Shown here: positions 7,930 through 64,000 of the stretch, one piece after another
Position numbering within the stretch: the first letter of the stretch is position 1
Layout: each line of letters begins with the position of its first letter
From: Prorocentrum cordatum
Lineage: Eukaryota > Sar > Dinophyceae > Prorocentrales > Prorocentraceae
DNA: 64,000 nt
Direction of reading: 5' to 3'
NCBI GenBank assembly: GCA_963575745.1
Contig: CAUYUJ010022544.1
Location: 18,501 to 82,500, forward strand
The notes under the pieces: model-generated
Told to the model about the DNA's origin: nothing
The model's input: only the letters and a program-made list of their open reading frames with translations
The model's database searches: none
Position numbers and translations under genes: made by a program

Positions 7930-7944
7930 CTTGAACAATGACCA

Positions 7945-40283: not shown

Positions 40284-40445
40284 CTGTGGCGACGAGGAAG
40301 GGGGGTTAGCAGCCGATAGCCGCTGGTCTTGAGGGTAGAAGCAGCGGCGACGAGGAAGGGGGGAAGCAGCCGATAGCCGCTGGACAACGGAAAGGAAGTG
40401 GCGACGAGGAACGGGGAGATGCAGCCGATTGCCGCGGGACTTGAA
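40284..40445 (+). repeat. Minisatellite with GCAGCCGATAGCCGCTGG core, left array
   Basis: Core copies at 40309-40326, 40366-40383 and, varied, 40421-40438, a period of 57 and 55 bp. Each is preceded by GGCGACGAGGAAGGGGGG. The same core and spacing recur at 63537-63904, on the far side of the large coding block and in the same orientation. Confidence 0.8.
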
Positions 40446-40565
40446 AGCGAAACAAGAGGCGGGGGAGAGCGGCCGGAGCCGCAAGGCCAAGTCCGAAGTG
40501 GGAGCGCCCCAGGGGGGGGGACGAGCCCACGGTATACGGGCGCGGCTAGCCTTCCGTGAAGGGGG

Positions 40566-41150
40566 TCACACGTTGTCCCGGGAGCCCAAGGCTGCGCGCC
40601 TTGGGGGCTCTGGGCTGCGTCGGCCCTGCCCTGGGCAGGGGGCCCCTGTCAGGCCAGTTGCCGGGCTACCAGCGTGCGAGTCCCCTTCCTCGCTGTCGCT
40701 TGTCAGCGTATTGCTCGTCACTTTTCGGGGCGGTCCTCTTTTCCCTGCTTCCCCACGCAGCGCCTCTCCATGAACTCTCCTGGCAGTCCCACCCTTCCCA
40801 GCGCGGCCTTGGGCGCCATGGGGCTCCAGAGCTGGATGCCCCCGACCAGGTGGTCTCCCTGTAGTCGGTGTACGCTGGCGGGACGGCTGCGTCAGCTCTG
40901 GGCTTGCTCCACGGGCACTGCTGCACAGCCCCGATGTGTGTGCTGGAGGACGGGGTCTGTTCGCAATGGCTTGTCCTGTCGGGTGGGGCCGGAGGGGGGG
41001 GTACTGTCCTGCTGCTGTCGGCCCAAGGGTATGGTGGCCCTCGCTATCTTGCCCCTTGGGTGCGTTGGTCCTTGCGCTGCGCTGTAGTAGGCTACGATAC
41101 TTATCAGTGACCTTTTGCCATTCCACCCGGAGCTGGTGGTCCCTTACCAT
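40566..41150 (-). CDS. Giant block ORF, last (disordered)
   Basis: About 195 residues, rich in Pro, Gly, Arg and Ser. It opens with RVEWQKVTDKYRSLLQRS, a short foldable helix, then is disordered to the stop at 40566-40568. Not recognised. It is the 3'-most coding piece before the left minisatellite. Confidence 0.35.
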   Translation of the reverse strand: MVRDHQLRVEWQKVTDKYRSLLQRSARTNAPKGQDSEGHHTLGPTAAGQYPPLRPHPTGQAIANRPRPPAHTSGLCSSARGASPELTQPSRQRTPTTGRPPGRGHPALEPHGAQGRAGKGGTARRVHGEALRGEAGKRGPPRKVTSNTLTSDSEEGDSHAGSPATGLTGAPCPGQGRRSPEPPRRAALGSRDNV

Positions 41151-41192
41151 CTTGTAGGCGTCGTAGCCCGCTGCTTCCCACGCCCGCAGAAA

Positions 41193-41765
41193 TTATTCGC
41201 AAAGCTCCGGTGTGTTCCTCTTGGAGTCCGAGTGGATGCGGACCCAAGGCAGACCTTGCAGGCTGCCTGCCCTGCGGACCCAAGCTGTCCACGCCCCGTC
41301 GAATGCGCCTCCGAGCGTCTTCTGCAGTCTGATGACCTTCTCTCGGGCTGGCTCGTCCCTCTGGATGTCGGCCTCGTCGATGGACCTCATGTACATGGGA
41401 AGCCCTCCCAGGGGGTCGTCTTGATGTGGAGGTGGGAGTGGATCGGCCTGTGGGCGAGGCCGTCTCTCTGGGCCTCTGTCCTGCCCGGGGCTGGGCGCCG
41501 GGCGGGTCTCGCGCGCTGACGCTGCGAGCTCAGGGATAGACTCCCGACGGCAGTCTGGCTTGCTCCCTGCCCCTCTTAGTTTCCTGTTGTCACTGACTTC
41601 TTCCATGTCCTCCCGGGAGCGGGCCGTTGCGTACGGCGCCCAGGTGGCCGCTTCCTCCTTCGCAGGGGGGTCTGTCCACAGCACTGTCCGCCTGTGGGAA
41701 CCATCTCTGTCGCTGGGGCCGTCGGATTCGGTTTCCTCGGCCTGCTGCGGGGGGCTGCCGACCAT
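41193..41765 (-). CDS. Giant block ORF, unknown
   Basis: Charged, low-complexity N-terminal half (Asp/Arg/Pro-rich). The last 60 residues look foldable: GGLPMYMRSIDEADIQRD, then EKVIRLQKTLGGAFDGAWTAWV. No family recognised. Confidence 0.35.
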   Translation of the reverse strand: MVGSPPQQAEETESDGPSDRDGSHRRTVLWTDPPAKEEAATWAPYATARSREDMEEVSDNRKLRGAGSKPDCRRESIPELAASARETRPAPSPGQDRGPERRPRPQADPLPPPHQDDPLGGLPMYMRSIDEADIQRDEPAREKVIRLQKTLGGAFDGAWTAWVRRAGSLQGLPWVRIHSDSKRNTPELCE

Positions 41766-41793
41766 GGAGACGGCCCTGTCTGGTGGATTGTCC

Positions 41794-42546
41794 TCATCCC
41801 AGTCTACCTCGAGTGGGTTGTCGCCAATACCGCGGGAGTCCCTGCCAGGGGATGGTTCCTCCGTTTATCTCCTTGCTCGCTTTTGTGGCTCCTGGGGGCT
41901 GCTGGCGGAAGTCATCGCCAGGGGCGCGGCCGTCCGAGGCTGGTGGGCGCGTTTGCCAGACAGCGGCGGGGGAGCGGTCTCCCGTGTCGTTGCTGCTCCC
42001 GGCGTTGCGTTCGCCAGCGAGGAACTCCAGCGTTCCCCCTGCGAGATCGTCCTTCCTCAGGGATAAGAAGCGGTGCAGCGTGTCCAACGGCTGCCGTCGG
42101 GGGTCTTGTCCTCTTTGGCTATTGAGCGCGTCGGAGAAGGAGCGCCAGGCCTCCTGGAACTTCTCATTCCTCCCAACCAGCTGCGCGATGGCATTGGCTG
42201 CGGCAGCTCTCTGTCCGCCCCGCGGGATGCGTGGGGGATCTCTATTCTTGGGGATCTGGTCCCCGTAAATGGAGTGCTGGAAGCGCAGCAGCTGGTTGTG
42301 TGACCATTCCGATTCATCGCTGTCTTCACCCACTTTGTCCCCATTCCTTTCCCCACCGAAAGTCGACCACCGGATGTAGACCTCGTGGTTCCATTCCAGC
42401 AGAAACTTCACAAGTTTGCGGACTGGGCTGCACGACTGCCCCCCTTCCAGGCGGAGGGTCGTGTGCGTGGGTAGCTGGGGGGCGCTGGGTGGTGGGAGCG
42501 CGGGCAGAGCGCACCAGAATGTAGCACTGTCATTGGGGATCCTCAC
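41794..42546 (-). CDS. Giant block ORF, unknown
   Basis: About 250 residues. The middle has a plausible helical domain (LVKFLLEWNHEVYIRW; NQLLRFQHSIYGDQIPKN; ANAIAQLVGRNEKFQEAWRS). The C-terminus is Pro/Gly/Arg-rich. No motifs known to me. Confidence 0.4.
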   Translation of the reverse strand: MRIPNDSATFWCALPALPPPSAPQLPTHTTLRLEGGQSCSPVRKLVKFLLEWNHEVYIRWSTFGGERNGDKVGEDSDESEWSHNQLLRFQHSIYGDQIPKNRDPPRIPRGGQRAAAANAIAQLVGRNEKFQEAWRSFSDALNSQRGQDPRRQPLDTLHRFLSLRKDDLAGGTLEFLAGERNAGSSNDTGDRSPAAVWQTRPPASDGRAPGDDFRQQPPGATKASKEINGGTIPWQGLPRYWRQPTRGRLG

Positions 42547-43400
42547 TGCCCGTGATCCGAGCCCGGGGGGGGGGGGCGCCTGCGGTGGAGCCCTCGTTTG
42601 TAGCTGTGCTGGCAGGAGAGAGGTGTGCAGTCATGTCGTAGGTGTCCCAATCCTCAGCGCCTTCACTAGTCGCCGCCGTGACGGGGCTGGGGGGGCATAT
42701 CTCGTTCGAGCATGAGTCCAGCACTTTGTTGAGTGTGCTGGGTGCGATGTCCCAGATGTGCACCAGGCATCTCCTGCAGGCCCAGCTGGCGTTCCATTGT
42801 CTTTTGGTCCACAGCGATGGCATTGCTTCCCACTCTGGGAGGCCTGTGCGGTAAAAGTATTCGGCGCATTCTTCAGGGCGCCAAATGAAGCACCCCAGGG
42901 CGGGTGTGCCTGCCGGCCATTCGAGACCTGGGGAGCGCGGGGGACAAAAGTCGCACTTGGCCGAGAAGCATTTGCCACGGTGCGCCTCTGCACCGAACCT
43001 GCCGTCTGACAGCCTTTGCGGTGGCAGCGTGGTGCCTACGTAGGTGGGGCGGTAGTGGCGCGGCGTACGAAGTAGGAGTCCCTTGAGGGAGACCGAGGCT
43101 GCTGCGTCCTTCGGTTCCTGCAACCCCAGTGGGAGCCTGTCCAAGGATGGGAGGGTTCTTGCCCTCTTCTGCTCCCGGTTGTCCAGTAGCCTGCGCTTGT
43201 GCTCCTGCAGTAACCATTGCATGGACTTCTTGCTGATGCGCTCCAAGGGGTCAGGCTCGGGGAGGGAAATGCCTTTCTTCTCCAATGAGGCAACCCAACA
43301 GCGTTCGCAGAGCCATCTGCAGTTTTCCCCCTTCGTGTGCGCCTGCAGGCGGTTCTGGGCGAGTAGCTCACGGGTGTAGTCGTCCTCCCAGGTGCCTGCA
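42530..43400 (-). CDS. Giant block Cys-rich ORF
   Basis: The frame is open upstream of the first usable start to about 43400, where it reads ENCRWLCERCWV. Further Cys pairs follow: CFSAKCDFC, CFIWRPEECAEYF, WACRRCLVH and CSNEICPP. These spacings suggest two or three zinc-binding modules, perhaps a divergent zinc finger for RNA or DNA. No established family was recognised. Confidence 0.45.
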
Positions 43401-43411
43401 GAACCGTGGAG

Positions 43412-44041
43412 TCACCCGCTGTGGCATCCGTCGCAGTTGTACGTGGCCTCCTTCTGTAGCCTGCTGGAGCGCCCATCGTGCACCACGGGGGGAACCAGCG
43501 TAGTACCTGGGGCGGGTGAGGCGGGGATGTCTTCGTCGAGGCGGTGGTTGGAGACGGCCTGCCCTCCGCCTATGTACTGCAAGTCCTCCATGGTTCGCGG
43601 GCATCCCAGCCCAATCTCCGACCCTGCCAGCGCAGTGTGAAGCAGGCAGATGGAGCACTCTCCGTCGTGCAACCGGTTCACGTCAGCTGGCTGCACAATG
43701 TCTTCTAGTACGCGCAGGGGGGCTTCCGAAACGAAATCGTGCGTCTCCATCCCTGCCCACGTCTTCGGACAGCCGTGCTTGTCAGCAATCTCGTGGTGGT
43801 GGGCGTAAGTGGCCAGGGTACTCGTGTGACGTATGACTTTGGCGAGCTTGGTGTGGAGATCCCCGAGGTCCGCCAGCTGGTAGACCCACGTCGTGGCGAA
43901 CTGCGTGCGGAACTCTTTGTGTGCTTCCTGCCATGGGAGGCAAAGGCCCATCATTGCTTCGAAAATGTCCCCGGTGACCTCGGGGTTTGGGAAGGGCCAT
44001 AGCGTGGCCCGGGGCTCACGTAACTGCAGCATCACGACCAC
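43412..44041 (-). CDS. Giant block ORF with Cys motifs
   Basis: About 210 residues. The N-terminal half is helical with aromatic residues (TWVYQLADLGDLHTKLAKVI). The C-terminal half has CSICLLHTALAGSEIGLGC and ends YNCDGCHSG. CSIC at this spacing resembles the start of a RING-like finger but the His/Cys pattern is incomplete in this frame. Confidence 0.4.
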   Translation of the reverse strand: MVVMLQLREPRATLWPFPNPEVTGDIFEAMMGLCLPWQEAHKEFRTQFATTWVYQLADLGDLHTKLAKVIRHTSTLATYAHHHEIADKHGCPKTWAGMETHDFVSEAPLRVLEDIVQPADVNRLHDGECSICLLHTALAGSEIGLGCPRTMEDLQYIGGGQAVSNHRLDEDIPASPAPGTTLVPPVVHDGRSSRLQKEATYNCDGCHSG

Positions 44042-44074
44042 CAGTAATACCCTGAGTGCGTGGGGGAAAAGCGG

Positions 44075-44491
44075 CTACCCGCCAGCACCGATAAGCGCGT
44101 CTGTGAGCTCCGTGTCGATCCCCTCGTGCTTGAGCAAGGCGTTCAGGTTCTCCATTCCTGGATGCACCCTGTGCCGACGACACCTGCAGGCAGTAAAGCT
44201 CCATGCCGCTGGAAACTGTTGGAGCGTGTCACGGGGGGTGCAATGACTTTTCCTCTTGGGGGCCCGGTTGGAGCCCACCATGTGGGGTAGTGGTGGGAGA
44301 GACTCATACGCGACCCCAAACTGCTTGTCGTTCCATGGCGTGCCGAGCCCGAGGAACCAGACAATGGCCGCCCACGTGAGGTTGTATACGAGGTTGCTCG
44401 CATCGATCCCAACTTCCACGTCAAGGCAGTGACCCAGGTGGCTCCATGCTTTCCTATCTAGACTGCCTGGTTGTCTGGGCGTGGCCCCCAT
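44075..44491 (-). CDS. Giant block ORF, unknown
   Basis: 138 residues with a hydrophobic core (IDASNLVYNLTWAAIVWFLG), then a basic CRCRRHRVHPG segment. It follows the helicase C-terminus in another frame and may be its continuation. Not recognised. Confidence 0.35.
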   Translation of the reverse strand: MGATPRQPGSLDRKAWSHLGHCLDVEVGIDASNLVYNLTWAAIVWFLGLGTPWNDKQFGVAYESLPPLPHMVGSNRAPKRKSHCTPRDTLQQFPAAWSFTACRCRRHRVHPGMENLNALLKHEGIDTELTDALIGAGG

Positions 44492-46555
44492 TTGCCATTG
44501 GTGGGGGTGTAGTCCGGAGATGGTGTACAGCAGGATGCCCGTGAGTGGGTCGTCGACCAGCGTCTGGATGCTGTCCGAGAGGGCGGCCCCAAGCTTCGCC
44601 CACGAAGTGGTGCTGCGATGCGGTCCGTGAACGAGCTCTCCAATTTGGCCTTGGCCTTCCTGATGGCGTCGTCCAGGCCCTTTACACTGTCGTCCCCGTC
44701 ATGTGTGCGAGCAGCTGGGATCCAAGACTCCAGGTCCTTGATGGGGTCGAATCCCTCGCCACAGTGAAGGGCGGTACGGTTGCCCATGTCGCTCTCGTGG
44801 AAGCGGACCCAGAGCCCGGCCATCCTCCCATACTCCGAGAGTTCCCTGAGGTGCGATCCCGTGGCGGTGCCGAACACTCTTCCATCCCCGATTATGACAA
44901 CGCGTGACGTGGCACGCGTGATAGCGACATTGAACCTGTGGGGATTCTCCATGACACCCCAGTCGTGGAAGTAGTTGGACCGCGTGGTCAGGTAGATCAC
45001 AATGTCTGCCTCACCGCCCTGGCTAGAGTCGATGGTGGAGATGCTGAGCCTGCCGCTGGCCAGGTATTTCCCGGCTACCTGGCATATCCCTTGGATGTGT
45101 AGCCCGATGCCGTTGAGTGGTGAGCTCCACTGATCGGAAACCTGCTCGTGGCCTCGCTGGTCCCGGGGGTGGAGAGGGGGGTCGCTCGGCCCTATAAACT
45201 CGCCTTTGCCATCGCCCTTGTCCTTATTCCTAGCCTGCCCGAGGGGGCCGATGATGCTGCGACCTGACTGGGGCCAGCCCTTCTCGCGCACCGCACACTG
45301 AAGTTGGTAGCCTACCACGACCAGGACTGTGGTCCCATTTTCCATGTCCGGTATGAGGGCCCTCACCACGTCCACCGTCTGCGCGGCCTCTGGGATGTTT
45401 GCGTAGCCAGAGTGAAGATTGGATGTGACCTCGACTGAGGGGTTGTCGACCAGGAGGAACCAGTGCCTTTCATCCGAGGGTTGCGGTGGGGGTTGAAGGT
45501 CCCGTAGTAACGTATCCATGTCGCCTGTGGTGGTCTTGGCCGATTCAGCCAACGCCCAGAGCCTCCCTTTGTCCCAGGGTCGTACCTGCTGCCACGGTAG
45601 TCCTTCCACGATCGGTCTCTGCGTCAGTGGATTGATGAGCCCTGTCCGAATAGCCTTGTTGTAGAAGGCCACGTTCGGCCACGACAGGAGAAGAGGATGC
45701 ATACGGTAGCATAGGTCCAGTTTTACAACTGCAGGGTTACCCCCGCCCAGTGCATTGCACAGCTTATCGAATATGGAGAGACACAGTCCCCTTATCCGCC
45801 GCCTTCCTGGAGAGGGCAGTGGGGGGAAGCTGCCTGGGGTAGCCGACCAGTAGTAGGCGCCCTCCCGAACGTATGACACTGACGAGGGACATTGCCGCCA
45901 TGAGTTCGTGAGCCTGTCCCGCCTCGTCGATGATTAGCAGAGCCGTTGGTACCAGCTTCAGCGACTCAGCCGCCTCGCGGGTGGCGATAATCAGCTTGGC
46001 GTCGCTTAGCAGCTGAGAGCGGAAGGACAGGAGCTCCTTGGACGGCCCATTCTGCTTGGGAGGGCGGTCGTGGGTCCTCTGAAAGTGTCCCACTGGGGTG
46101 AGGGACGCAATCTTAGGCGCCACTCGGGCGTCCTTCGCGAGCCTGACACACCTGTTGGGAAAGCTGGTCTCGCCAGCCAGTCTATTCTCCTCGTGCGCAA
46201 TCCCGAGCCCGATGGCAGTCTGATCGGCTGCCGTGTTCGATCCGGCTGTGAGGGCCACAGATTGCCTCGCAGGAAACGAACTAGCCCATGCGTCCATGGT
46301 GGCCACCGTGAATAGAGTCTTGCCAGTCCCTGGGGGTCCATGTACAATCGTCACGTGGTGTCGGATGGTGGCAGTCAGTGCTTTGGCAGCGTTCTCGTTT
46401 AGTCGGTGCCGTCTGGCGGCGTCGTTGAGGCTGCCAAGGGGAGGAAGGTTGCGTACTCGCTGGGGGGCCTGCCCGATGGACCCATCGACCTCATCGTCTG
46501 TGAATGGTGTGGCGGCTTGCGCCTTGCTGTGATGCTGCAGCCTCGTGTCTTCCAC
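44458..46555 (-). CDS. UPF1-like SF1 helicase
   Basis: Superfamily 1 RNA/DNA helicase of the UPF1/SETX/IGHMBP2 type. In one frame: Walker A GPPGTGKT (46316-46339), motif II DEAGQ (45914-45928) and motif III GYPRQLPPT (about 45818-45844). After a frame change: CYRMHP (about 45694-45711), YQLQ, motif V TIDSSQGGEAD (about 45004-45036) and motif VI RFNVAITRAT (about 44908-44937). All core motifs are present. The break lies at a G4 run on the coding strand (45788-45791); three Gs give KGLCLSIFDKL, which fits the family. Coding upstream at 46600-46835 (LDRAPSKLQYWRIYQAIS) probably belongs to the same protein. It could unwind element RNA or cDNA. Position downstream of an RT on the same strand is unusual. 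Confidence 0.85.
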
Positions 46556-46599
46556 CGCCGCTACGCCCGGCAGGCACTGCGCTCTGCTCTCAAGGGTGG

Positions 46600-46835
46600 C
46601 CCTCGCCCTTGCCAGGAGGGAAATGCTGCATGCCCTCGTATTCTCCCCTTCGTTTGCCCTTAGCCTGTCTCTCCGTTGGGTGGTCCGCTGATTGAGGTAG
46701 AACGTTTTTCACATCCAGTGGAGAGCCCACCAAGTCGTCCGATGCTTGCTGCAGCTTGCAGATCTCACTGATGGCCTGGTAGATTCTCCAGTACTGCAGC
46801 TTCGACGGCGCTCTGTCCAGTCGGAACAGGACTTA
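46600..46835 (-). CDS. N-terminal extension of the helicase ORF
   Basis: An open frame without an ATG reads VLFRLDRAPSKLQYWRIYQAI, then ICKLQQASDDLVGSPLDVKNVL, then turns basic and stops at about 46600. LDR-P---YWRI phrases of this type lie just upstream of helicase domains in UPF1-like proteins. I infer it is a helicase segment separated by a frame break. Confidence 0.4.
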
Positions 46836-47123
46836 TCCCTCGCCGTCTGCGTTTGATTCCTTGCCGAGAGCCCGAAGCTCCTCTGCCTGCTTGGGGTCGC
46901 ACCACGCCAGAGCTTGGTTGGTGGGATACCTTGCGCCTTCCCTAAGCTCCATTACGACGCACTCGTTGCTGGGGATGTGGCCACCAAATTCCGGGGGCCA
47001 CACGAGCCTGAGGGAGGCGACCTGGTCCTCTGACGGATTGGTGAGGCCGACGAGCAGCGCCCGAGACTGCGAGTCCTGACCCCGTCCATTCCCTTGAGCG
47101 ACAGCCTGAATGCACTTGGCCAT
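46833..47123 (-). CDS. Giant block ORF, unknown small piece
   Basis: 97 residues, RALLVGLTNPSEDQVASLRLVWPPEFGGHIP then YPTNQALAWCDPKQAEELRALG. Protein-like composition, no recognised family. It lies between the zinc-finger region and the helicase. Confidence 0.35.
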   Translation of the reverse strand: MAKCIQAVAQGNGRGQDSQSRALLVGLTNPSEDQVASLRLVWPPEFGGHIPSNECVVMELREGARYPTNQALAWCDPKQAEELRALGKESNADGEG

Positions 47124-47176
47124 TGCAGGTGTCGGAGTGTCTTCCCATCCTGGGGGGGGGGAACGCGTGGCGAAGC

Positions 47177-48000
47177 TTATTTTTTATCGCGCGCGCGGCA
47201 AGCCGACAGCTCGTGCGTGGGGGTGACCGCCACTTTCACGGCACAGCTCTTCTTGCGTGCAAGGTCGGTTCTGGCTTTTACTGAGCCGTCCCATGTCGTC
47301 TCCGCGGGGGCCATGGTCTCCGTCCATACCAGTCTGGACAGAAAGATACCCCTCTGTCGTAGGTCCTGCTCCCAGTGTTTTGGCAGGTTGACTCCTTCTG
47401 CGATTTTCCCCAGGGGGGCGCGCAGACGGAACTGGGCTGCAGGGCGTTCCGCTGGCACGGAGAACATCTGCACGATGGCCTTGGCTGCGGTATCAGCTGG
47501 GGGGTCTGGGGGCGTCGGCGAGGCGAGCGGGTGGCGGCCGCTGGTCCAGCCGAAGTCCCCCCCCCGTAGCGACCCGCCCCGTTCGGTGGGGTCTTGCGAC
47601 GATGCCCTGCTGGACCCGGCCAGCCTGTCGCACAGGTTTGGGGGGGGCGGCTCCTCTGCGCGGATGCGAGGGGGAGGCGGGCCGCTCCCTCCCAAAGTCC
47701 TTATGTTGAGCCATGGGTTAATCCCCCCGCCACGTCGGTATAGGTCTGCCGGCCGCAGGTTGGCAGACGGGATCGCGTCGGTGGGGGTGATGAAACTGAA
47801 GTCGTCGTCCCGAAATGGAAAGTCGACCAGTGCGTGGTCCCAGTCATCCGGGAACGTCCAGCCCGGTAGGTGCACGCGGCCCTCTTCCACGTCCGGACAG
47901 GGGAATTCCCACCCTGGCCACGCGTGTCTCTCGATTTCAAGATTGGCGATGCAGTCTCTGGTCCCCCCTCGGGTCCGGGCCCAGAGGTTGCCTGCCTGAG
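47177..48000 (-). CDS. Giant block ORF, unknown
   Basis: The frame runs open from about 48000 (CIANLEIERHAWPGWEFPCPD, then VHLPGWTFPDDWDHALVDF), through a Pro/Gly-rich linker, to a basic C-terminus (RKKSCAVKVAVTPTHELSACRARDKK). The Trp-rich start looks like a folded domain. Not recognised. Confidence 0.4.
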
Positions 48001-48086
48001 TATAGCTCCTGGGGTAAGGCCACCCGTGCTCCTTCTGCTTTGCGGCCTCCTGGTAATGTTCGGTACTCCTGAGATGCGCCTTGCCG

Positions 48087-49256: not shown

Positions 49257-49263
49257 CTGCCAC

Positions 49264-52816: not shown

Positions 52817-52990
52817 CAGCGCCCGTAGGCTCCTTGGAGCCCGAATGCTGCGGTGGCACCTTCCTCCAGTGCTTCGTTGAGCGCGCGACGTGCCTGGTCC
52901 CAGGCGCGCGCGCGCGCATTCCCGGAACTCGAAGGTGCCGAGGAGGGGACCCCAACGCTCTGTGGAGCGTGTTGGGGTCCCTGGTAGAGT

Positions 52991-54360: not shown

Positions 54361-54387
54361 GGTGGACTGGACCGCGGGTCCGACCCC

Positions 54388-54700
54388 TTATGTTCCTTGT
54401 TCCTGCTGCGCGAAATCCCGTTCAGTCGGCTCCTGGACCTGCAGTCTGCCCGTGATGTCATTGGCCGCCTGGTCGGGTTCTAGGCGGACCGTGCCTTGTT
54501 CGTGCAAGGACTGCAGGGTCTCCCGAATGGTGTCGTTGTCTAGTCCTGCTACCTGGTAGGAGGCCAGCACCTGATTGGGTGGGGCTATCGGGGCAAGCCC
54601 GGTTTCGCTGTCCCTGTGCTGCGACCAGACCTGTTGCAGGACGTCAGTAGGTTGCGGAGCTGCGGTGGGTCCATTGGGGGCGTGGGGGCTGGTTCTCGGT
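54388..54700 (-). CDS. Giant block ORF, tail upstream of the methyltransferase
   Basis: About 100 residues in a new frame following the ORF at 54644-55687: VLQQVWSQHRDSETGLAPIA, then YQVAGLDNDTIRETLQSLHEQGTVRLEP, a predicted helical domain, ending QQEQGT at a TAA (54388-54390). Could be the C-terminus of the preceding protein. Confidence 0.4.
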
Positions 54701-55687: not shown

Positions 55688-56928
55688 TGGCGTCCTGTCT
55701 CGCCTGCCGGCTGGCGACCGTCGGGATTGCCCCCCATACTTTCGTCTGCCAGGCCGCTATTCTCTGCTTGCGGGGTAGGAGGTGCAGTCACCGTGCGTGA
55801 GCTTCTCGCCCGTTCCGGCTGGGGGACCTGTCCCTGTGGAAGCGGCCCCCCGGAGCTAGCTTCTGTTTGCCGCGCCTGTGGGGGTCTTGCTTCCGATGGC
55901 GCGTCTGAGCGCGGGGGGGCCTGCGTTCGTTGGCTCTGCCCTCTCGTCTGCTCGGTCTCACGACGTCCCTCATCCGCCTCCTGCATAGGCTCGTCTGTAG
56001 CGCCCCCACTTAGAGAGGCGTTCACGGAGGAACCTCCTGGGGAAGCAGAGGATGTAGCATTGCCTTCTCTGCTGTCACCTTGCCGTCGTCTCGGAATGCC
56101 TGGTGCCGTTTGGGAGTCCTGGCTGCTGTGGCGCTCTGCTTGCGGTGCCCCTGCTTGCGCGGCTGCCCCTGGGCTTGACTTTTGGCCCGGCGGGGAGCCG
56201 GGTGGGTTATGTGGTTCCCGTGGCGCGCTTCGATGCGACGCTTGTGGCTCGCTCCGTTCTCTGCGGTGAACTCCTTGTGCGTGGCCCTGCCTGGCCCGCG
56301 TACTCTGTGCCCCAGTCTCACCCGTGAGGTTCGCGCTGCTGTCCCTATGAGTCCTTCGGGGCCTGGGGGCCCTCCCTGGGTCGTGCCGCAACCTGTCTTC
56401 GCTGGCTTCCCTTCTGAGCCTCTCGTCCATGGCCTGGGCGCCTTCTAACGTGCCTGGCACCAACCTGTGTGCAGCGTCGCTGTCAACGTCTGCTCCCCGG
56501 CCCCCAGGGACCTCAAGCCAGGGGCGGTGGGCAGTGTATGTGAGGTCTGGCTCAGGTGATAGCCACTGAGCGAACGGGAGTTGTCTGGTGACCTTTTCCT
56601 TTATGCCTAATTCCCTGATGAACTGGTTTAGGTGGTCTCTTTCCAGCGTAGCAGGGTCCGTTAGCTGAAGCATCCAGATGGCAGCGTATAGGTCCCAATT
56701 GTATCTTCTGATGGGTATGCCTTCGTCCTGTCGCCGCTGCTCGAGTACCAGCCTGGTTTGAATACTTCTTGCCAGGTCGCGCGTGCTCTGCTCATCGATA
56801 CACGCCTGGAACTTACCGAGCATGCCTTGCGCGCACGCGACTGCGTCGCTGTCTGCTCTGACCAGTGCGCCATCTGCGCGGGCTCTTAGCCGCATCTTGT
56901 GCGCGAGCACTTCAGCAAGGGGGGGCAT
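55570..56928 (-). CDS. Giant block ORF, unknown, helical then disordered
   Basis: Residues 1-150 look folded (RADSDAVACAQGMLGKFQACIDE; RYNWDLYAAIWMLQLTDPATLERDHLNQFI; RELGIKEKVTRQLPFAQW). The remaining 300 are Arg/Gln/Ser/Pro-rich and disordered. It overlaps the start of the next ORF in another frame. Not recognised. Confidence 0.4.
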   Translation of the reverse strand: MPPLAEVLAHKMRLRARADGALVRADSDAVACAQGMLGKFQACIDEQSTRDLARSIQTRLVLEQRRQDEGIPIRRYNWDLYAAIWMLQLTDPATLERDHLNQFIRELGIKEKVTRQLPFAQWLSPEPDLTYTAHRPWLEVPGGRGADVDSDAAHRLVPGTLEGAQAMDERLRREASEDRLRHDPGRAPRPRRTHRDSSANLTGETGAQSTRARQGHAQGVHRRERSEPQASHRSAPREPHNPPGSPPGQKSSPGAAAQAGAPQAERHSSQDSQTAPGIPRRRQGDSREGNATSSASPGGSSVNASLSGGATDEPMQEADEGRRETEQTRGQSQRTQAPPRSDAPSEARPPQARQTEASSGGPLPQGQVPQPERARSSRTVTAPPTPQAENSGLADESMGGNPDGRQPAGETGRQWYRRARRGQPQTVSRVPHPETHWEEETPPDRALTYPPA

Positions 56929-57350
56929 GTTCTCGGTCGAGCTGGGCCTGGTAGAGAGTCGACTGCCGCATGCCTTCTTGGGGGTATTATCGATTCTCGA
57001 GGCTGGCTAGTGCTGATTCCCAGGTCTTGAGGTGTTGGTCTGGGCGTCGATGCAGCGTCCAGTTTCGCTAGATGCACGGTCCCGTGCAGTAGCTGTATAG
57101 CTACTCTTATCAGCGGTCGGTCCGCCCCACGGCTGGCCGCTCTCAAATCGGCGTCCGCTGGCAGGGCGATGGTGATCCACATAGGGGTGGAGGTGTAAAG
57201 GTGTCCGTCTTCTCCGCTCGCAGTGACCGACACAGCTCCGCCCGCCGCCACCGCCGCTGAGAGGTGTTCCCCTGGGTGAAGTATGGCGCTATAGTCCCGC
57301 AGACCGCCCCTGCCTTCCACCGTCACTCGCCGCGCAGGATGGCCCCTCAA
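56886..57350 (-). CDS. Giant block ORF, unknown
   Basis: 154 residues with a beta-rich middle (LSAAVAAGGAVSVTASGEDG; TPMWITIALPADADL; RPLIRVAIQLLHGTVHLAKL), then a short basic tail. Possibly continuous with the ORF at 57347-57877 after frame repair. Not recognised. Confidence 0.35.
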   Translation of the reverse strand: MRGHPARRVTVEGRGGLRDYSAILHPGEHLSAAVAAGGAVSVTASGEDGHLYTSTPMWITIALPADADLRAASRGADRPLIRVAIQLLHGTVHLAKLDAASTPRPTPQDLGISTSQPRESIIPPRRHAAVDSLPGPARPRTCPPLLKCSRTRCG

Positions 57351-57877
57351 AGCCGCACTCCACCTCGCGGAGCCATTCCTCTGGGATGTCCGGGGGGGGG
57401 GATTCTTGCCATGCTGTCTCCTTGTCCTCTGGTCGTTCCCTCAGGGAGTGGCCATGCTCTGGTGTGCGAGCTGGCTCCGGCCGAGCCGATCGCCGCCGAG
57501 AACATCCGTGACCTGGTGTGGCTTGGGATCCAAGGGTCGGGGCGCATTGGCCGCGGTCTGGGGGGGCCAATCGGCCTTCCTTGCCGATCGAACGCTGTGA
57601 CCTCCAGTATCTGCGGTTGCACCGCTATCCTTGGAGCCTGTCGTGCTGTTTGCCCTGCTAAGGCCGCGATGTGCTCCGCTTGTGCCCTAGGTGCTCCTGC
57701 GTCTCCCCTGCTTTGCTCTCTGGTGGGGGTGGCTGGGAACATCCTCGCCACCTGCGCGCCCACTGTGATGCAGCTTGTTCCGCAAAAGGCCGCAGACATA
57801 TTAGCCGCAGCCCCAAGTCGGATTCTGACCTGCGTCATGCGTTGATGGTCCCCCGTGTCCGGAAACCAAGCGAACAC
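57347..57877 (-). CDS. Giant block ORF, unknown
   Basis: 176 residues, AWFPDTGDHQRMTQVRIRLG then AAFCGTSCITVGAQVARMFPA, followed by a Pro/Arg-rich region. It overlaps the next ORF by a few bases. No family recognised. The 58-95 bases upstream to 58096 are coding-like but frame-broken. Confidence 0.35.
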   Translation of the reverse strand: MFAWFPDTGDHQRMTQVRIRLGAAANMSAAFCGTSCITVGAQVARMFPATPTREQSRGDAGAPRAQAEHIAALAGQTARQAPRIAVQPQILEVTAFDRQGRPIGPPRPRPMRPDPWIPSHTRSRMFSAAIGSAGASSHTRAWPLPEGTTRGQGDSMARIPPPGHPRGMAPRGGVRL

Positions 57878-58095
57878 TGCCGCGACTTGCTCGACAGCCC
57901 CTGCCCCGACTGTAGCCTCCGCGGCCCTTGCGATATCTTGCCTGCTGGTCTGCCCCAGGTCGGCGAGGTTCCATCTGAGGTGATGGCCGTCCTCAGGGTC
58001 CGAAAGTCTGATGAATGAAGGGCCCCCGTCCCATTCCCCTTCCAGGGGGATCCTTCGAGGGCAGCGCGCGGGAGAGCCGCTTGCTGATCCAAAGA

Positions 58096-59379
58096 CTAAG
58101 GGGAGTTCTTCCTAAGATATCTCAGTGTGGGGGCTGCGGTTGCCAGTGCAATGCAGGTGGCGGCTCTGGACACAGGGATGTGCACGGAGTCTGATGCCTC
58201 CCTGGATCTCCAGGTGCTCCCGCTGCTGCTGTCCCCGGCTAGGGCAGTCTGCGCCGCTACCTGCAGGGCCTCCATGTGGGGGTCGCTCTGTGCCAGGCCC
58301 CGCGTCGCTCCATTGTGAGCGCGCCGAATTACGTGGTGATATAGTGGCTCCAATCCCTCCCTCAGGAGGGTCTCGTCCCTAGGTAGGGATATTTTAATGG
58401 TAGCCCACTCAACGTTTACGGACGCTCGCTCCAGGTCATCAGTCATTCGCCTCCATCTTAGAATCTGGGCCACCACAGCGTCGTTTTTCTGGTCCGGCGT
58501 CAGTATGTGTAGAGCATCGCTGGTGTCCGGGTCCTCACCACCCCAATGCACCACCACTGAGGGTGGGTATACTGTTCTTTGGGGGTGGCTAGTGATGTCA
58601 AACTGTGCCGCCACCAGCTGCAGCAGTGGAGGACTGCTGCGCCCAGTTATGATCGGGTTTCCTATCGGGAGCAGGTGTGTGATCATATTGGTGGCTCTGT
58701 ATCCCCGTTGCGCGCTGGCGATGGCGATGAGTTCGGTTGGGTCCGGGCCCCCCGGGGCAGGGGCTCCATGTCCTGTCAGTGCCACGACCTTGCAGGAGCT
58801 CATTCCTGAGGCTGCCGCAGCCAGTGTGGCCTGCAGCTGGGACGCGTTGGCGTCCGCCACGACGATGGTTGGTGCGCCTTGCCCTTCGGCCTGGACGCCC
58901 CTACTGCAAACTAGTTCTTTGATCTGTTCATAGGCGCTCGGGCTAAACAAAGCCACGGCAGTGCCCGTGTCGTCCGCATGTCTGTCCCCGACCAACGGGG
59001 CTCTTGCAATAACGAGTTCAGCTCTTAGCTCCCTGACTGCTGCCATAAGGAGGGGTGTTGGGAAGGTTGCCGGCCCTCTTCTACTGGCGTCTCCTGGGGG
59101 ATGCCTGGCGAGGATGGCAGCCCATCTGCCCTGAGTAATGCTTGGGGGTGCGTTCACCCTTTTCTGGCTGGATGGGGGGGCTGGGGCATTATTGCCCCCC
59201 TGTTCCTCTTCGCCGTCGAGGTCGGAGGGTGGGGTAGTGCTGTCTGGCTCGTAGTCCATATCGTCCTCTACGTCCATGTCGTCAGGTTGCGCTGCGGGCC
59301 TCCTGCTGCCTTCAACGTGTTCCTGCATTCTCTGCGCGTCCCTGACCGTGACGTATGTGTCGGGCCTCCGTATCGTCAA
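58096..59379 (-). CDS. Giant block ORF, 427 residues, unknown
   Basis: An acidic N-terminus (DDMDVEDDMDYEPDSTTPPSD) is followed by an alpha/beta-looking core: VAVVREL-like helix AAVRELRAELVIARAPLVG, then PTIVVADANASQLQATLAAA, SSCKVVALTGHGAPAPGGPD and ITHLLPIGNPIITG. The alternation of hydrophobic strands and Gly turns resembles a nucleotide-binding fold, but no diagnostic motif is present. Ends TAG/TAA at 58096-58098. Confidence 0.45.
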   Translation of the reverse strand: MTIRRPDTYVTVRDAQRMQEHVEGSRRPAAQPDDMDVEDDMDYEPDSTTPPSDLDGEEEQGGNNAPAPPSSQKRVNAPPSITQGRWAAILARHPPGDASRRGPATFPTPLLMAAVRELRAELVIARAPLVGDRHADDTGTAVALFSPSAYEQIKELVCSRGVQAEGQGAPTIVVADANASQLQATLAAAASGMSSCKVVALTGHGAPAPGGPDPTELIAIASAQRGYRATNMITHLLPIGNPIITGRSSPPLLQLVAAQFDITSHPQRTVYPPSVVVHWGGEDPDTSDALHILTPDQKNDAVVAQILRWRRMTDDLERASVNVEWATIKISLPRDETLLREGLEPLYHHVIRRAHNGATRGLAQSDPHMEALQVAAQTALAGDSSSGSTWRSREASDSVHIPVSRAATCIALATAAPTLRYLRKNSP

Positions 59380-59394
59380 TAGGTCCGCTCTCAG

Positions 59395-60783
59395 TTAGTC
59401 CAGCTCCGCTGCTCTTGCAGTTGTAGCAGCTGCTAGCTCCCCATATGTGATGTGGGGGCTGATTGGGGTTAAGACCCCGCCCCACAGCTGCAGTGTTGCC
59501 TGCGTCTCTCTGGGGGGAGGGTGTCCTGGGAGCAGCGCCGCTATGCTGCCTCTGTCATTTGCTCTGCAATAGGGGCAGCGGACTGGCATGGCATTGTCTC
59601 CTCCTCTGAAGACCCCTGGCTGACTTAGTCCCCATTGTTCCAGGCATTCTTTATGGGACCTATGCCCGCATAGGCCAAGAACTTCCACCACCCCTCTGAG
59701 CTCCCCAGCACAGATGGTGCATGTCTGCTCACCTTCCCCGGTGTCCCATGCCGGGATGTGCTCTGGCTGGCCTGCCTGGAGGGCACCCTCCGCGTCGCCC
59801 GGTGGGTCAGCCGCACAAGCAATGGCCGAATAGAAGCTCCCCGTGAGGATCCGCGTTGTGGCGCGTGCCTCTTCCTCTGTTAAGCACGCCTGAAGTGAAG
59901 TAGTTTTGAGAAGGAGACATATCAGATGGTTCCCGAAGGGGGAGTAGGCGGTTGGGGGCTGTTCCCCCCTCTCTTCCAATAGGCGCCTAATGTCATTTCG
60001 GGTATGCACATCAGCGACTTGCAGCCATCTGGTGAGGACTTCGAAGGGCCGGTTGTCTATGCCTCGTACCTGGAGCACCGGTCTCAGTAGGGGGCCGTAG
60101 TGGGGCGCGAAGCAGAGCCACATGGCTCTCGATATCCAGCTCGCTGGGTCCAGTCGAGCTCTGGTCTCTCTGAGCAGTCCTTCTGCCAATGTCTGGGCCT
60201 CTGATCCGTTGAGGGAGGTGCGGTCTACATTATGTTGCCTGGTTCTGCCTGCCGCTTCGTCGTCTCTCTGCGTGGCGTCGAGCGTCCGTATCAAGGCGTC
60301 CAGGGTTCCTCCTCTACTGAATACCTGTGCGGCACCCCTGCCGCTGTCGCTAGTGTGTCCCCCGGGCTGCTGTCTGGTGCTCTCGTGCCACGGGGTGGCG
60401 ATGCTTTGTGCCCCTCCTCGTGCGGGGGAGGTGGGCTGCTGTCTACCTGCTATGCTGTCCCCGTGCCCGTTGGTTCGGTCCTGGGTCCGAACGCTACGCA
60501 GTCGCGCGCCGCTTTCGACCGCTTGTCTGTCTGCTGTTAGCACCGCTTCCTGGAGTTGCCCATGGGGGTCAAGCCACCTCATCATGCTTTCCTGTAGCGG
60601 GGGATCAATGCACCCACCCAGAAGGGGGGATGCGACTGTCCTTCCGATTTCTGTCGTCAGGCTGGCTGCCGCTAGTCCGAGCCTGCGCCGTGCCCCCATC
60701 CAGGGTAGCGACTCCCACCTATTGCCATCTTTCGCCAGCCCGCCTCGCCAGGGAGCTGGGGACCCCCGTGACTTCAAACGCAC
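59395..60783 (-). CDS. RING-H2 finger protein in the giant block
   Basis: 462 residues. A C-terminal RING-H2 finger has C355, C358, C372, H374, H377, C380, C403 and C406 (CTICAGEL ... LCGHRSHKECLEQW ... VRCPYCRAN), all eight zinc ligands in standard order. Such domains usually act as E3 ubiquitin ligases by binding E2 enzymes. The upstream half has a helical region (WISRAMWLCFAPHYGPLLRPV; RWLQVADVHTRNDIRRLLEE) and a disordered stretch. The frame continues the ORF at 60719-61174 after a one-base change. A retroelement-borne RING could target host silencing factors, which is inference. Confidence 0.7.
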   Translation of the reverse strand: MRLKSRGSPAPWRGGLAKDGNRWESLPWMGARRRLGLAAASLTTEIGRTVASPLLGGCIDPPLQESMMRWLDPHGQLQEAVLTADRQAVESGARLRSVRTQDRTNGHGDSIAGRQQPTSPARGGAQSIATPWHESTRQQPGGHTSDSGRGAAQVFSRGGTLDALIRTLDATQRDDEAAGRTRQHNVDRTSLNGSEAQTLAEGLLRETRARLDPASWISRAMWLCFAPHYGPLLRPVLQVRGIDNRPFEVLTRWLQVADVHTRNDIRRLLEERGEQPPTAYSPFGNHLICLLLKTTSLQACLTEEEARATTRILTGSFYSAIACAADPPGDAEGALQAGQPEHIPAWDTGEGEQTCTICAGELRGVVEVLGLCGHRSHKECLEQWGLSQPGVFRGGDNAMPVRCPYCRANDRGSIAALLPGHPPPRETQATLQLWGGVLTPISPHITYGELAAATTARAAELD

Positions 60784-61174
60784 GCTCGAGTGCGGCCCTT
60801 CCTTCTTCTGTCGCTGTTCCCCATATGAAGGGCACCACCAGTCGACTCCACGTCATGTTGGGTGGAATGTTGTCGTTCGCAACCTGGGTGCGGATGTCCT
60901 GGATTTCTTGCAGCGCTCTCCTGGCGTTTCCTTCACTTCTGCGAGGTGGGAACGCCGTCGCACTTGGCGTTGGGGCGCTCGTGGCGCGCGCGTCGCCACC
61001 CCTTCTTACGTTGCCCTGCTGGCGGTCTTCTCGGGCTACCGGGCCCCGATTCCTCTCGCTCTCGTCCGCAGGGCCATCGCCAATCGCAGAGCCTCCCCGC
61101 GCGGGGTTCCAGGGACCAGGCTGTATGCTATTAATCCCCCGCTGTCCGTGGCGGCCGCCACTACGGCTCTGCAC
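60719..61174 (-). CDS. Giant block ORF fragment, unknown
   Basis: Arg/Gly-rich start, then helical: RRALQEIQDIRTQVANDNIPP, TWSRLVVPFIWGTATEEGRAALERAF. It seems to be the middle of a longer protein spanning 63959 to 59395 through frame breaks. Confidence 0.4.
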   Translation of the reverse strand: MQSRSGGRHGQRGINSIQPGPWNPARGGSAIGDGPADESERNRGPVAREDRQQGNVRRGGDARATSAPTPSATAFPPRRSEGNARRALQEIQDIRTQVANDNIPPNMTWSRLVVPFIWGTATEEGRAALERAFEVTGVPSSLARRAGERWQ

Positions 61175-61653
61175 GCCACTTCCGTTGCTTCAATCGCCTC
61201 AGGGCTTGCGTCTGTCGCCCATGCCCTGTCTGCAGGAGTGATGACGAGGGCCTGGTCAATGAACGTGCCTCCGATTTCTCTTCGGAACCATTCCATGTCT
61301 CCGACCTGGAACCCTTCGAAGCAGCGTTGGTATCTGGTCCTTGGGCCCCGCGTGCCCTGAGTCGGGCCTCTCGCTGCAGGGGGCTGTGCCGGCATGTTGG
61401 CGGCGGGGGCGCTCAAGAGGCATCTCGGGACCCACTCGCGAAGCCGGCCGCCGAGGGGGTGCTGTCGCATGGTGTGCTGGATGCGCGTCGTCGCCTCTAT
61501 AGCCCATCCCATCGGCGCACAGCAGAGCCTGGCCAAAGAGCCGGCCGCTGCCCAGCATGCTCGCCCCATGGTCCTGGCGTGCCGGTCATTCGTCCTTCCG
61601 GCAGGCCACGCCCCCCGAGGTTCTCCATGTCGACCTCCGCTATGTGACGCCAT
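61036..61653 (-). CDS. Giant block ORF fragment, unknown
   Basis: From about 61600: GRACWAAAGSLARLCCAPMGWAIEATTRIQHTM, then RYQRCFEGFQVGDMEWFRREIGGTFIDQ and EAIEATEVACRAVVAAATD. It continues the big N-terminal ORF after a break at a G6 run near 61617. Not recognised. Confidence 0.4.
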   Translation of the reverse strand: MASHSGGRHGEPRGAWPAGRTNDRHARTMGRACWAAAGSLARLCCAPMGWAIEATTRIQHTMRQHPLGGRLREWVPRCLLSAPAANMPAQPPAARGPTQGTRGPRTRYQRCFEGFQVGDMEWFRREIGGTFIDQALVITPADRAWATDASPEAIEATEVACRAVVAAATDSGGLIAYSLVPGTPRGEALRLAMALRTRARGIGAR

Positions 61654-63959
61654 GCTGCGAGGAGCTCAGATATCAGCCAAGACGAAGAGAAATTGGTGGT
61701 CTCTGACGGGTGGCGCTCGTTGTCGACGTGGCTGGCGATGGGGGCGTAGCGAGCTCCCACCCTGGCCAGCTGGAACGTGAGCCTCGTGCCCAGCAGGTCC
61801 AGTGGGTGGTTGGGAGCTTCCAGCTCGGTGGTGGGAGAGCTGTCCACGTCGGTGGCCCATGCTGATCCTAGCCTGCGACACACGATGCTGCTACTCGTGT
61901 CCTGCCTCATGTACCAACATCCACAGTTTCCACATCTGCCTTTGGGATGAAAGAAATCCCCGCTCATGATCATTTGGGAGGTGCTGTTGACGGGCCACGG
62001 TCCTGTCGGATTGTCGCCTTCGAAGTCTCTGGGCCCCCCTATGCCAGGGGGCTGCGGTTCAGCGCTGTGAATAGCTGGTATAACCCACCCGTCGCGGCCT
62101 AGGCCCTGTTGCGGTGTTGAGAGGACATCTGTGCCAGCCTCGACCCAGTGCCCTCTGCTGATGGCCCAACGTCGGACTTCGCTGTGGTCCGGAAAGTGCA
62201 CGGCGTTGCGGCGACGCTCGTGGACTAGATGTTTGCAGATCCTGGCCTTTCGCTCCAAGTTCGCGTCAGCAGGTCCATTGTCCGCCGCGTCGGGCGCAGG
62301 GTCGCGCCGCCACCTGGACATACATAGGAGGGTTGGGAGAAAGATCTGGTCCGTAGGTTCGCACATCCCTATGTCCACGTAGAGGGCAGCGTGGTATAGA
62401 GTGTCGTATTCCGCTTCCGCCGCTAGGGTTTCCTCCTGTGTAGGCTCGTGAACATCTTGCATGTCAACCCCGATGTCCGGGTCTTGTGCGAGACTGGCAT
62501 AGCGGAAGGCAAGCACCTGAGCAGGGTCTGGCCCGACCCCACCCAGCCTAGCCTCGTGATCGGAGCCCGTGGTGGACCACACCAGCCATGTAAGGTCCAG
62601 GTGAGCCGTGGCCGACGCGACGCTGCGGATGCTCCCTGTGCCCCTCCGCTCCGTTTGGTTCCTGTCGGGCCGGTCCTCTCCACCTGCCGCTGGGGAACCG
62701 ACATTTCCCGGGGTGTGCCGGAGCCAACATCGCCTTATCAGCCCAACCAATCCTTCTTTCATTACTTGACTGCGGGGGGAGACCCTGTGCATCCTCAATG
62801 GCCCACCCCTAGGCTCGTGTCGCTCGAGAAGGGCTGAGAGGGGGCCTCCCCTCATGGTATTCCTAGGGTCCATCACTGTGGGGGCCTGGCAGGGAGCGTC
62901 GATGTGACGAGACACTTCCCCTCCCGGAGGCGGAGGAGGCCCAGACTGGGGGCCTTGCCCCCCTTGTCCGCGATTGTCCTCTCCTCCTGCGGGGCTGCGC
63001 GCCCCTGCCCTTCCAACTCGGGATGACCAGATGCGTGGTGGGGGGGCGGTTGGGCTGTGCTGGCCCCAAGCGTCCGAGTCCGAGGTGCTTTCATCGTCGG
63101 CACCCCAGTCGTGTGCCTCCTCAAACGGGAGCCTGTCGTCTTGCTCGTCTTCTCCTGGGTTCGACTCTCTTCCCGAGTCTGTCCCTGCCCTATTACCATG
63201 GCCGTGTTCCGCTTCGTGCTGCTGCCCCCCCCCCGTCCGCGCTGTCTCCCCTCGGGTTAAAAAGGGCACGGTGGGGGTTATCTCGAGGTCGTCCCCCGAG
63301 TCAGGCACCGGGATGGCCGCAGCTCGCTCCACGGCCGCTTCGGCTCGGGGGAGCCAAGCTGTGAAGGCAGTGGGGGAGGGCTGTGTCCCTCCCCTCTGCG
63401 TAGCTCCAATATAGGTGGCATTGCCCACCGCTGCTCCCTCGGAGGGCACGGGCGTGTGCGCCTCGGCATCACGGGGGGGTCTCTGAGCCGTGGCCAAGCC
63501 ATCCTGCGTCTCGCGAGGGGGAGAGGGAGGGGAGGTGCAGCCGATAGCCGCTGGATCTGATAAGTCGCACGCCACGGGAGGATGGGAGTGGGGGGAAGTG
63601 TGGCCGATAGCCACGTTCACTGGTGAAGTTGGAGGAGGAGAAAGGGAGGCGCAGCCGATAGCCGCTGGATCTGGTAAGATGCACGGAGATGGGGAATCAC
63701 CGTCGGGGAACGCTGGTCCTCTACTCGCAGCCTCTCTGCCATGGGGCTGTGGGAGAGCCGTCTCCGTTCTTGACGGTACTCCCCCAGCGCTGGACACTCC
63801 GCCGGCCGAACCCTGGCCGACCTGCCGCATTCCAGGTGAAGCGGCACATGAATCCTTCAACTCAGGGAAAATGAGAAGAGGAGGAGGTGCGGCCGATAGC
63901 CACGGCCACTGGTGGATCATAGGATGAGGGAGGGGGAGCATTGACGCCTCGATCCGCAC
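61497..63959 (-). CDS. Giant block N-terminal ORF (disordered, then Cys-containing domain)
   Basis: 820 residues, possibly 5'-truncated by the window edge. The first ~330 residues are Pro/Ser/Gly/Asp-rich and contain repeats DPAAIGCAS, NVAIGHTS and DPAAIGCTS, which are encoded by the minisatellite core itself. After about residue 390 the sequence looks folded: SRSQVMKEGLVGLIRRCWLR, LDLTWLVWSTT, AEAEYDTLYHAALYVDIGMCEP, FLPTLLCMSRWRR. A Cys cluster CGNCGCWYMRQDTSSSIVC near 61880-61935 may bind zinc. No family recognised. Confidence 0.45.
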   Translation of the reverse strand: MRIEASMLPLPHPMIHQWPWLSAAPPPLLIFPELKDSCAASPGMRQVGQGSAGGVSSAGGVPSRTETALPQPHGREAASRGPAFPDGDSPSPCILPDPAAIGCASLSPPPTSPVNVAIGHTSPHSHPPVACDLSDPAAIGCTSPPSPPRETQDGLATAQRPPRDAEAHTPVPSEGAAVGNATYIGATQRGGTQPSPTAFTAWLPRAEAAVERAAAIPVPDSGDDLEITPTVPFLTRGETARTGGGQQHEAEHGHGNRAGTDSGRESNPGEDEQDDRLPFEEAHDWGADDESTSDSDAWGQHSPTAPPPRIWSSRVGRAGARSPAGGEDNRGQGGQGPQSGPPPPPGGEVSRHIDAPCQAPTVMDPRNTMRGGPLSALLERHEPRGGPLRMHRVSPRSQVMKEGLVGLIRRCWLRHTPGNVGSPAAGGEDRPDRNQTERRGTGSIRSVASATAHLDLTWLVWSTTGSDHEARLGGVGPDPAQVLAFRYASLAQDPDIGVDMQDVHEPTQEETLAAEAEYDTLYHAALYVDIGMCEPTDQIFLPTLLCMSRWRRDPAPDAADNGPADANLERKARICKHLVHERRRNAVHFPDHSEVRRWAISRGHWVEAGTDVLSTPQQGLGRDGWVIPAIHSAEPQPPGIGGPRDFEGDNPTGPWPVNSTSQMIMSGDFFHPKGRCGNCGCWYMRQDTSSSIVCRRLGSAWATDVDSSPTTELEAPNHPLDLLGTRLTFQLARVGARYAPIASHVDNERHPSETTNFSSSWLISELLAAWRHIAEVDMENLGGRGLPEGRMTGTPGPWGEHAGQRPALWPGSAVRRWDGL
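63537..63904 (+). repeat. Minisatellite with GCAGCCGATAGCCGCTGG core, right array
   Basis: Exact cores at 63537-63554 and 63651-63668; variants (TGGCCGATAGCCACG, GCGGCCGATAGCCACGG) near 63598 and 63888. The first three are spaced about 57 bp apart, as in the left array at 40309-40438, and also follow GAGG-GAAAGGGAGG. Here the array is inside the N-terminal ORF. Confidence 0.8.
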
Positions 63960-64000
63960 CGTCCTGAGGAGGGTCAGTGTCCACCCTTGCCGGGGGGGAG

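Follow-up and report, generated by a model that had tools for sequence, protein, structure and literature searches.

The window analysed here, the whole 64,000-nucleotide stretch C21695:18501-82500 of the genome assembly of the dinoflagellate Prorocentrum cordatum (4,128,499,153 bases in 21,875 contigs), carries on its minus strand a long succession of genes that appears to form a single mobile element. Read from 5' to 3', this element would comprise proline-rich open reading frames (ORFs), an ORF with a RING finger, ORFs without known domain, a cytosine DNA methyltransferase (DNMT), an ORF2, a UPF1-like helicase, and a 3' untranslated region (UTR) of 1.5 kb (Table 1). ORF2 itself would combine an endonuclease of the EEP type, a reverse transcriptase (RT), a zinc finger and an RNase H-like end. 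We regard the locus as very probably a decayed copy of an autonomous family of long interspersed nuclear elements (LINEs, or non-LTR retrotransposons) of about 25-26 kb. A size of about 25 kb is close to the upper end of the LINE size range, or reaches it. The gene order recurs in the host genome, a common 3' end is found in four copies, and the helicase has been under purifying selection.

The coding path was called by combining a codon-usage Viterbi decode, sliding codon scores and open reading frames. According to the decode, minus-strand coding spans 63998 to 40572 but is split by 18 frameshift points into 19 pieces, and six stops lie in frame (59397, 52993, 46835, 44077, 43414 and 41195). 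A preliminary description of this DNA had noted almost continuous minus-strand coding; the extent and the strand of the coding are confirmed, whereas its being clean is not. Beyond 40572 the decode gives 2,120 nt without coding signal, and comparison with other copies sets the 3' end of the element at 39027, which replaces the boundary at 40446 suggested before. On the opposite side, a run of 5,000 N (64001-69000) starts directly past the window edge, so that the 5' end of this copy falls in an assembly gap and is unseen. In addition, some 840 bp are missing from the window copy at 48118/48120; the three other copies read there have this part (C5703, C14094 and C21864, about 840-880 bp), and in them it codes for the C-terminal end of ORF2.

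In a Pfam scan of 20 frames of the window, the RING finger and the two helicase domains, AAA_11 (E 1.1e-22, 45764-46708) and AAA_12 (E 9.9e-26, 44458-45933), score above the cut-off, the methyltransferase and RT matches lie below it, no endonuclease match is present, and the remaining frames hold no match above the cut-off; scanning the window for Rfam families and tRNA genes gave no match. Protein relatives were sought in a collection of 5,772,631,384 proteins, each search scoring the 7,995 best candidates. For the DNMT ORF, this gave at least three relatives (P0001-P0003, 43-48% identity), two of which, P0001 and P0002, terminate at the position of the window stop 52993; P0003 was included in the DNMT alignment (A1) though it ends early. 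The closest sequence match of the DNMT in PDB is DNMT3A (E 0.0041), with the first HhaI entry at 0.061, and an AlphaFold2 model of it was too poor to use (mean predicted local distance difference test score 47). The methyltransferase of the preliminary description is retained as an ORF with relatives, and its 'DNMT3-like' label is only weakly supported by sequence and stays unproven.

At least four relatives of the EEP-RT ORF (P0124-P0127, 41-55% identity) are single frames of 1,579-1,811 aa on contigs of 18-27 kb, and they align to the window within 52876-48129. An EEP-type domain and RVT_1 occur together in one ORF in the collinear single-frame relatives P0125 and P0126, with scores below the Pfam cut-offs; the endonuclease hits of P0126 are weak (E 3.2e-4 and 0.0038). 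The endonuclease proposed earlier from the window is therefore seen, as weak hits, in collinear relatives and not in the window frames themselves. The zinc finger and the RNase H-like end are putative and named after motifs. As for the helicase, the joined query has one full-length relative among the best candidates, P0004 (32% identity over 98%), with an E value of 1.4e-130 against 3.5e-25 for the next of the 532 matches, a helicase. P0004 also carries AAA_11 and AAA_12, has NAM7/Upf1 as its best PDB match (3.2e-23), and is collinear with the window over 46784-43262. Because P0004 reads through the positions of the window stops 44077 and 43414, both stops are taken as lesions, and the helicase match extends downstream of the query end (44080) in all 30 own-genome loci that were fetched.

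The linkage of these genes was followed through the host genome, where the places scored were the best 88 of 2,354 candidates for RING, 89 of 1,825 for DNMT, 59 of 4,010 for RT and 50 of 4,099 for the helicase. The first three counts include the window, and a place split into pieces was counted once, which removed 2 of 90 RING, 1 of 90 DNMT, 3 of 62 RT and 5 of 55 helicase rows. Absence from these sets is uninformative, since the window's own helicase is missing among the best 50 of 4,099. At least 39 same-strand pairs, one of them the window, have RING before DNMT, and 35 of the 39 gaps measure 4.8-5.95 kb; within 25 kb, there is no opposite-strand exception and there are two in reverse order (C15290 and C21211), which have equal scores and are probably one duplicated locus. 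DNMT precedes the helicase on the same strand in at least 18 pairs, 17 of them with gaps of 6.2-8.4 kb, C14167 being the sole pair outside this range (20.9 kb); exceptions within 25 kb amount to one on the opposite strand and none in reverse order. All three genes stand together at no fewer than 12 loci, C14167 among them, with C15290/C21211 counted twice. Forty RT places reach at least 60% identity. For 30 of these, the window being one, a RING, DNMT or helicase place lies nearby in the expected direction; an opposite-strand neighbour within 20 kb occurs at none of the 40. The central proposal of the preliminary description, a possible giant retroelement with RING, methyltransferase, endonuclease, RT and UPF1-like helicase on one strand, is upheld by an order that recurs in many copies; the multiple copies with matching ends that it had called for are represented by the RING-DNMT and DNMT-helicase pairs, the linked RT places and the four shared 3' ends.

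More distant relatives occur in the same genome. None of the 19 RT places below 60% identity has a neighbour among the matches listed for the window queries; with P0001 as query, three of them have a DNMT 1.53-1.54 kb upstream. With P0004 as query, the best 35 of 5,388 helicase candidates show 35-38% identity, and 17 of these 35 places have no stop inside the match, with frames of up to 2,502 aa. At one of the 35 (C19144), a DNMT lies 7.06 kb upstream of the helicase on the same strand. Given that DNMT precedes RT in those three places and the helicase in C19144, a related family in the host genome shares at least parts of the layout.

Three other copies were read along DNMT, EEP-RT and the first part of the helicase ORF, which follow one another in this order in C5703 (94% DNA identity), C14094 (82-87%) and C21864 (70%); in each, as in the window, the DNMT ORF is directly upstream of the EEP-RT ORF, and a helicase place from the own-genome search adjoins. 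C14094 and C21864 keep DNMT, EEP, RT, the RNase H-like end and the helicase ORF in order. C5703, with 21,257 bp from end to end, matches the window at 92-95% DNA identity over 39028-58193 (93% for 39028-48041) and 63463-64000, the approximately 5.3 kb between being missing. C14094 measures 25,750 bp from end to end, of which about 5 kb of the interior is unread, and it matches window 59886-64000 at 83% DNA identity. No match to the element ends was found in C20607 (L051) and no clear 3' end in C21864 (L049), and L050 ends short of the 3' end.

Selection on the helicase was estimated from the ratio of nonsynonymous to synonymous substitution rates (Ka/Ks). The 30 helicase loci yielded 12 with a stop-free match of at least 450 aa and hence 66 pairs, 65 of which were used, the remaining one being outside the Ks limits. 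The median Ka/Ks is 0.21, and 60 of the 65 pairs stay under 0.5. At the greatest depth (eight pairs, Ks 1.3-1.45), values are 0.16-0.21, and among the eight shallowest pairs, seven lie at 0.42-0.83 and one at 0.27. This is the pattern of a helicase kept under long-term purifying selection in active lineages while single copies decay, and it speaks for a functional role of the helicase in the element.

The matching 3' end is found in the window, C5703, C14094 and C8857. It closes in a tail composed of roughly 6-9 A residues and then a fixed word some 13 nt long; this tail reads (A)6-G-TATCCCCACCAG in the window and has close variants in the other three. The 23-nt tail word AATCAAAAAAGTATCCCCACCAG has 1,540 matches in the genome at two mismatches or fewer, and its reversed control none; it may be common to other families as well. 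At its 5' end, C5703 reads TATCCCCACCAG-CCC-CTTTGGCTCAAG, and the dinoflagellate spliced leader, as given in PMC6050394, ends in the 11 nt TTTGGCTCAAG, so that, judged by this match, C5703 begins with a spliced-leader relic. On the 5' side of C14094 (L047:2200-2442), a microsatellite of the TACTAA type replaces approximately the initial 60 bp that the element has in C5703. Directly behind the C14094 tail (L048:1693-1710), there is a spliced-leader-like stretch with a 4-nt gap, which suggests that a further retrocopy follows.

In C5703 and C8857, the tail abuts the inside of another copy, which starts at the equivalent of window 42742 and 42050, respectively; both neighbours are read as 5'-truncated copies, and the stacks are taken to stem from insertion at tails already present or from template jumping between them. 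Three short units are likewise stacked behind the element in the window, each closing in an A-run plus TATCCCCACCA, and these may be SINE-like (short interspersed nuclear element-like) partners that use the LINE tail. The 5' flank of C5703 (L043:2203-2330) contains the word GGTTTCGAATCC, which resembles the consensus of a tRNA B-box, and ends in TATCCCCACCAG just ahead of the element; this flank is possibly a tRNA-derived SINE.

No long terminal repeat (LTR) was found in 38500-64000, and nothing in the 3' part of the window matches the 5' end of C5703 (L043 1681-2202); since terminal repeats are lacking, a reading as a DIRS or LTR element was rejected. The only sequence common to both end regions is a short, hairpin-like word of 15 nt. 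It occurs in the 5' ORF as well as the 3' UTR of three copies (window, C5703 and C14094), and C1143 has it in the 3' UTR. A covarying RNA hairpin formed by this word was tried and dropped, as 77 of 500 shuffles reach the observed score, with 7 distinct rows among 25. Since the covariation is not significant, only the recurrence of the word in both end regions is claimed here, a hairpin being possible.

Table 1. Features of the element and its 3' flank in the window
Feature	Position	Strand	Basis
Most upstream ORFs, first Pro-rich and next Cys-containing, without known domain	61036..63998	-	Open frames, coding decode; cut at 64000 by assembly gap
Four copies of the 15-nt hairpin-like word GYGGC-TATCG-GCYRC in the 5' ORF	63537..63903	-	Repeat search; word also in C5703 and C14094
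ORF with RING-H2 finger	59395..60852	-	zf-RING_2 E 3.9e-7
Two overlapping frames, no Pfam match	57347..59394	-	Open frames, coding decode
Pro/Arg-rich ORFs preceding the methyltransferase, no Pfam match above cut-off	54644..57006	-	Open frames, coding decode
Putative cytosine DNA methyltransferase ORF, stop 52993	52991..54421	-	Pfam DNA_methylase E 0.017; relatives P0001-P0003
ORF2, first part: putative endonuclease/exonuclease/phosphatase (EEP)	51347..52990	-	Relatives P0124-P0127, of which P0125 and P0126 have weak Pfam hits of the EEP type
ORF2, middle: reverse transcriptase with YVDD	49264..51537	-	RVT_1 E 2.1e-5
ORF2, putative zinc-finger region; next, RNase H-like part (~840 bp) missing at 48118/48120	48087..49331	-	Motifs, alignment
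ORF3: large protein, UPF1-like superfamily 1 helicase core 44458-46708	42622..48088	-	AAA_11/AAA_12, P0004, Ka/Ks
Last part of the coding region, without known domain, charged/Pro-rich towards its end	40572..42621	-	Open frames, decode; present in C5703
3' UTR tandem repeat, 55-bp unit, three further copies of the hairpin-like word	40288..40444	-	Repeat search
3' UTR and tail ending (A)6-G-TATCCCCACCAG	39028..40571	-	3' end matched in other copies
Three short tail-bearing units outside the element, head-to-tail	38544..39027	-	Each ends in A-run + TATCCCCACCA

Elsewhere in the window, there are an inverted pair of about 680 bp (7940-8619 and 11888-12570), 85.5% identical and 73-75% identical to 37543-37954, and a tandem array at 30637-31394 with about 7-8 copies of a 97-98-bp unit.

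Several observations weigh against a single autonomous element. All four copies considered along their length (window, C5703, C14094 and C21864) are broken by frameshifts or stops, and the activity of the window subfamily is therefore not demonstrated; assembly error may be behind some of these lesions. The RNase H-like end of ORF2 has no sequence match in PDB, which leaves RNase H unconfirmed by sequence; the spliced-leader relic is found in one copy only (C5703), the 5'-most stretch of C14094 being replaced by the microsatellite; and a target duplication is ambiguous in C5703, where TATCCCCACCAG stands ahead of the 5' end and TACCCCCACCAG past the A-run, because the duplicated word is the element's own tail. 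RT copies without neighbours, which the preliminary description had named as evidence that would speak against it, do occur: 10 of the 40 closer places, together with 16 of the 19 below 60% identity, have no neighbour among the matches listed. In the same way, a DNMT partner is found among the matches listed for only 18 of the 50 helicase and 39 of the 88 RING places. These two figures speak for a rival reading in which a compact LINE-Dnmt lay beside unrelated, separately amplified RING and helicase repeats, their proximity being an accident of a repeat-rich genome or the product of a large segmental duplication, and some contig pairs with equal scores and lengths do look duplicated (C15290/C21211, C115/C18897 and C82/C13704). 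However, accidental proximity is at odds with the near-constant spacing and the almost complete lack of opposite-strand or reverse-order neighbours, the order is kept in a copy at 70% DNA identity (C21864) and repeated in part by a related family, and partners absent from sets of best matches are to be expected. We therefore consider this explanation very unlikely.

An integrated virus-like or polinton-like DNA element carrying a LINE would account for the size and the gene capture, which resemble those of such elements, and helicases and methyltransferases are common viral genes. Against it, the Pfam-scanned window frames contain no viral gene, the RT and DNMT scans of viral_contigs found no relative, only one internal inverted pair of 25 nt occurs in 38500-64000 (the 5' end being outside the window), and the ends are LINE-like, with a tail, one 5' spliced-leader relic and truncated neighbours; such an origin seems extremely improbable. 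A different matter, internal to the LINE interpretation, is how the head-to-tail stacks arose. Template jumping of the RT within one insertion, as opposed to repeated insertion at tails, is a serious candidate with a chance somewhat short of even: the complete tails of C5703 and C8857 abut another copy at an arbitrary internal point, but the same junctions are expected from a 5'-truncated copy inserted into an older tail, and only these two junctions were read.

Giant retroelements with many extra genes also exist in rotifers as terminons, which are Penelope-like; they share these traits with the element described here and differ from it in having a Penelope-like RT instead of that of an EEP LINE. 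The closest known system, as far as it is described in the article of de Mendoza et al. 2018, is SymbioLINE-Dnmt, in which a DNMT ORF lies upstream of the RT ORF (PMC5890265). Both are multicopy dinoflagellate elements in which a cytosine methyltransferase ORF without introns immediately precedes an EEP+RT ORF, a likeness of layout. The element of P. cordatum differs in its length of about 25 kb and in the addition of RING and the UPF1-like helicase; the word 'helicase' does not occur in the main text of that article, nor RING in its section on DNMT and RT. Further traits of SymbioLINE-Dnmt are a DNMT from an orphan lineage specific to Symbiodinium and the lack of a poly-A tail, with which the A-run plus fixed word seen here may or may not be in keeping. 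The insect LINEs TRAS and Jockey have, according to the accounts in PMC6338049 and PMC5563155, likewise gained a superfamily 1 helicase. Theirs is of RNA-virus origin and in TRAS part of the ORF2 protein (PMC6338049), whereas the one reported here is UPF1-like and belongs to a separate, very large ORF. No report of a LINE with a UPF1-like helicase, RING and DNMT was found in searches of open-licence literature, which is not proof that none exists.

Trans-splicing with the spliced leader DinoSL has been described in dinoflagellates (PMC6050394), and unusual DNA methylation in Symbiodinium (PMC5890265). In the life cycle that we propose for the element, its RNA would be trans-spliced with the dinoflagellate spliced leader, as suggested by one copy. 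The ORF2 protein would nick DNA and use the tail (A)nGTATCCCCACCAG for priming, in many cases where tails already exist, and head-to-tail stacks would result. The helicase may help the enzyme through the very long, GC-rich RNA, or protect it, while the methyltransferase would methylate the new DNA and the RING protein would mark host factors for ubiquitination. Taken as a whole, this would be a self-sufficient package of about 25 kb, in which the helicase serves to copy or shield an RNA several times the length of ordinary LINE RNAs, the methyltransferase marks the copies, RING disarms host factors, the host's spliced leader is put to use, and the element's own tails become landing sites that build genome-wide arrays; we offer this full picture as a speculative and rather doubtful one.

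The helicase MOV10 is UPF1-like. In mammals, it is reported to restrict LINE1 (PMC10174503), and for this reason a UPF1-like helicase encoded by the element itself is notable. The family described here indicates that a LINE with a coding path of approximately 7,800 codons can still multiply, which bears on the processivity of reverse transcriptases. Moreover, the combination of an RNA-surveillance-type helicase and a DNA methyltransferase in one mobile element would make the arms race between element and host testable on defined proteins.

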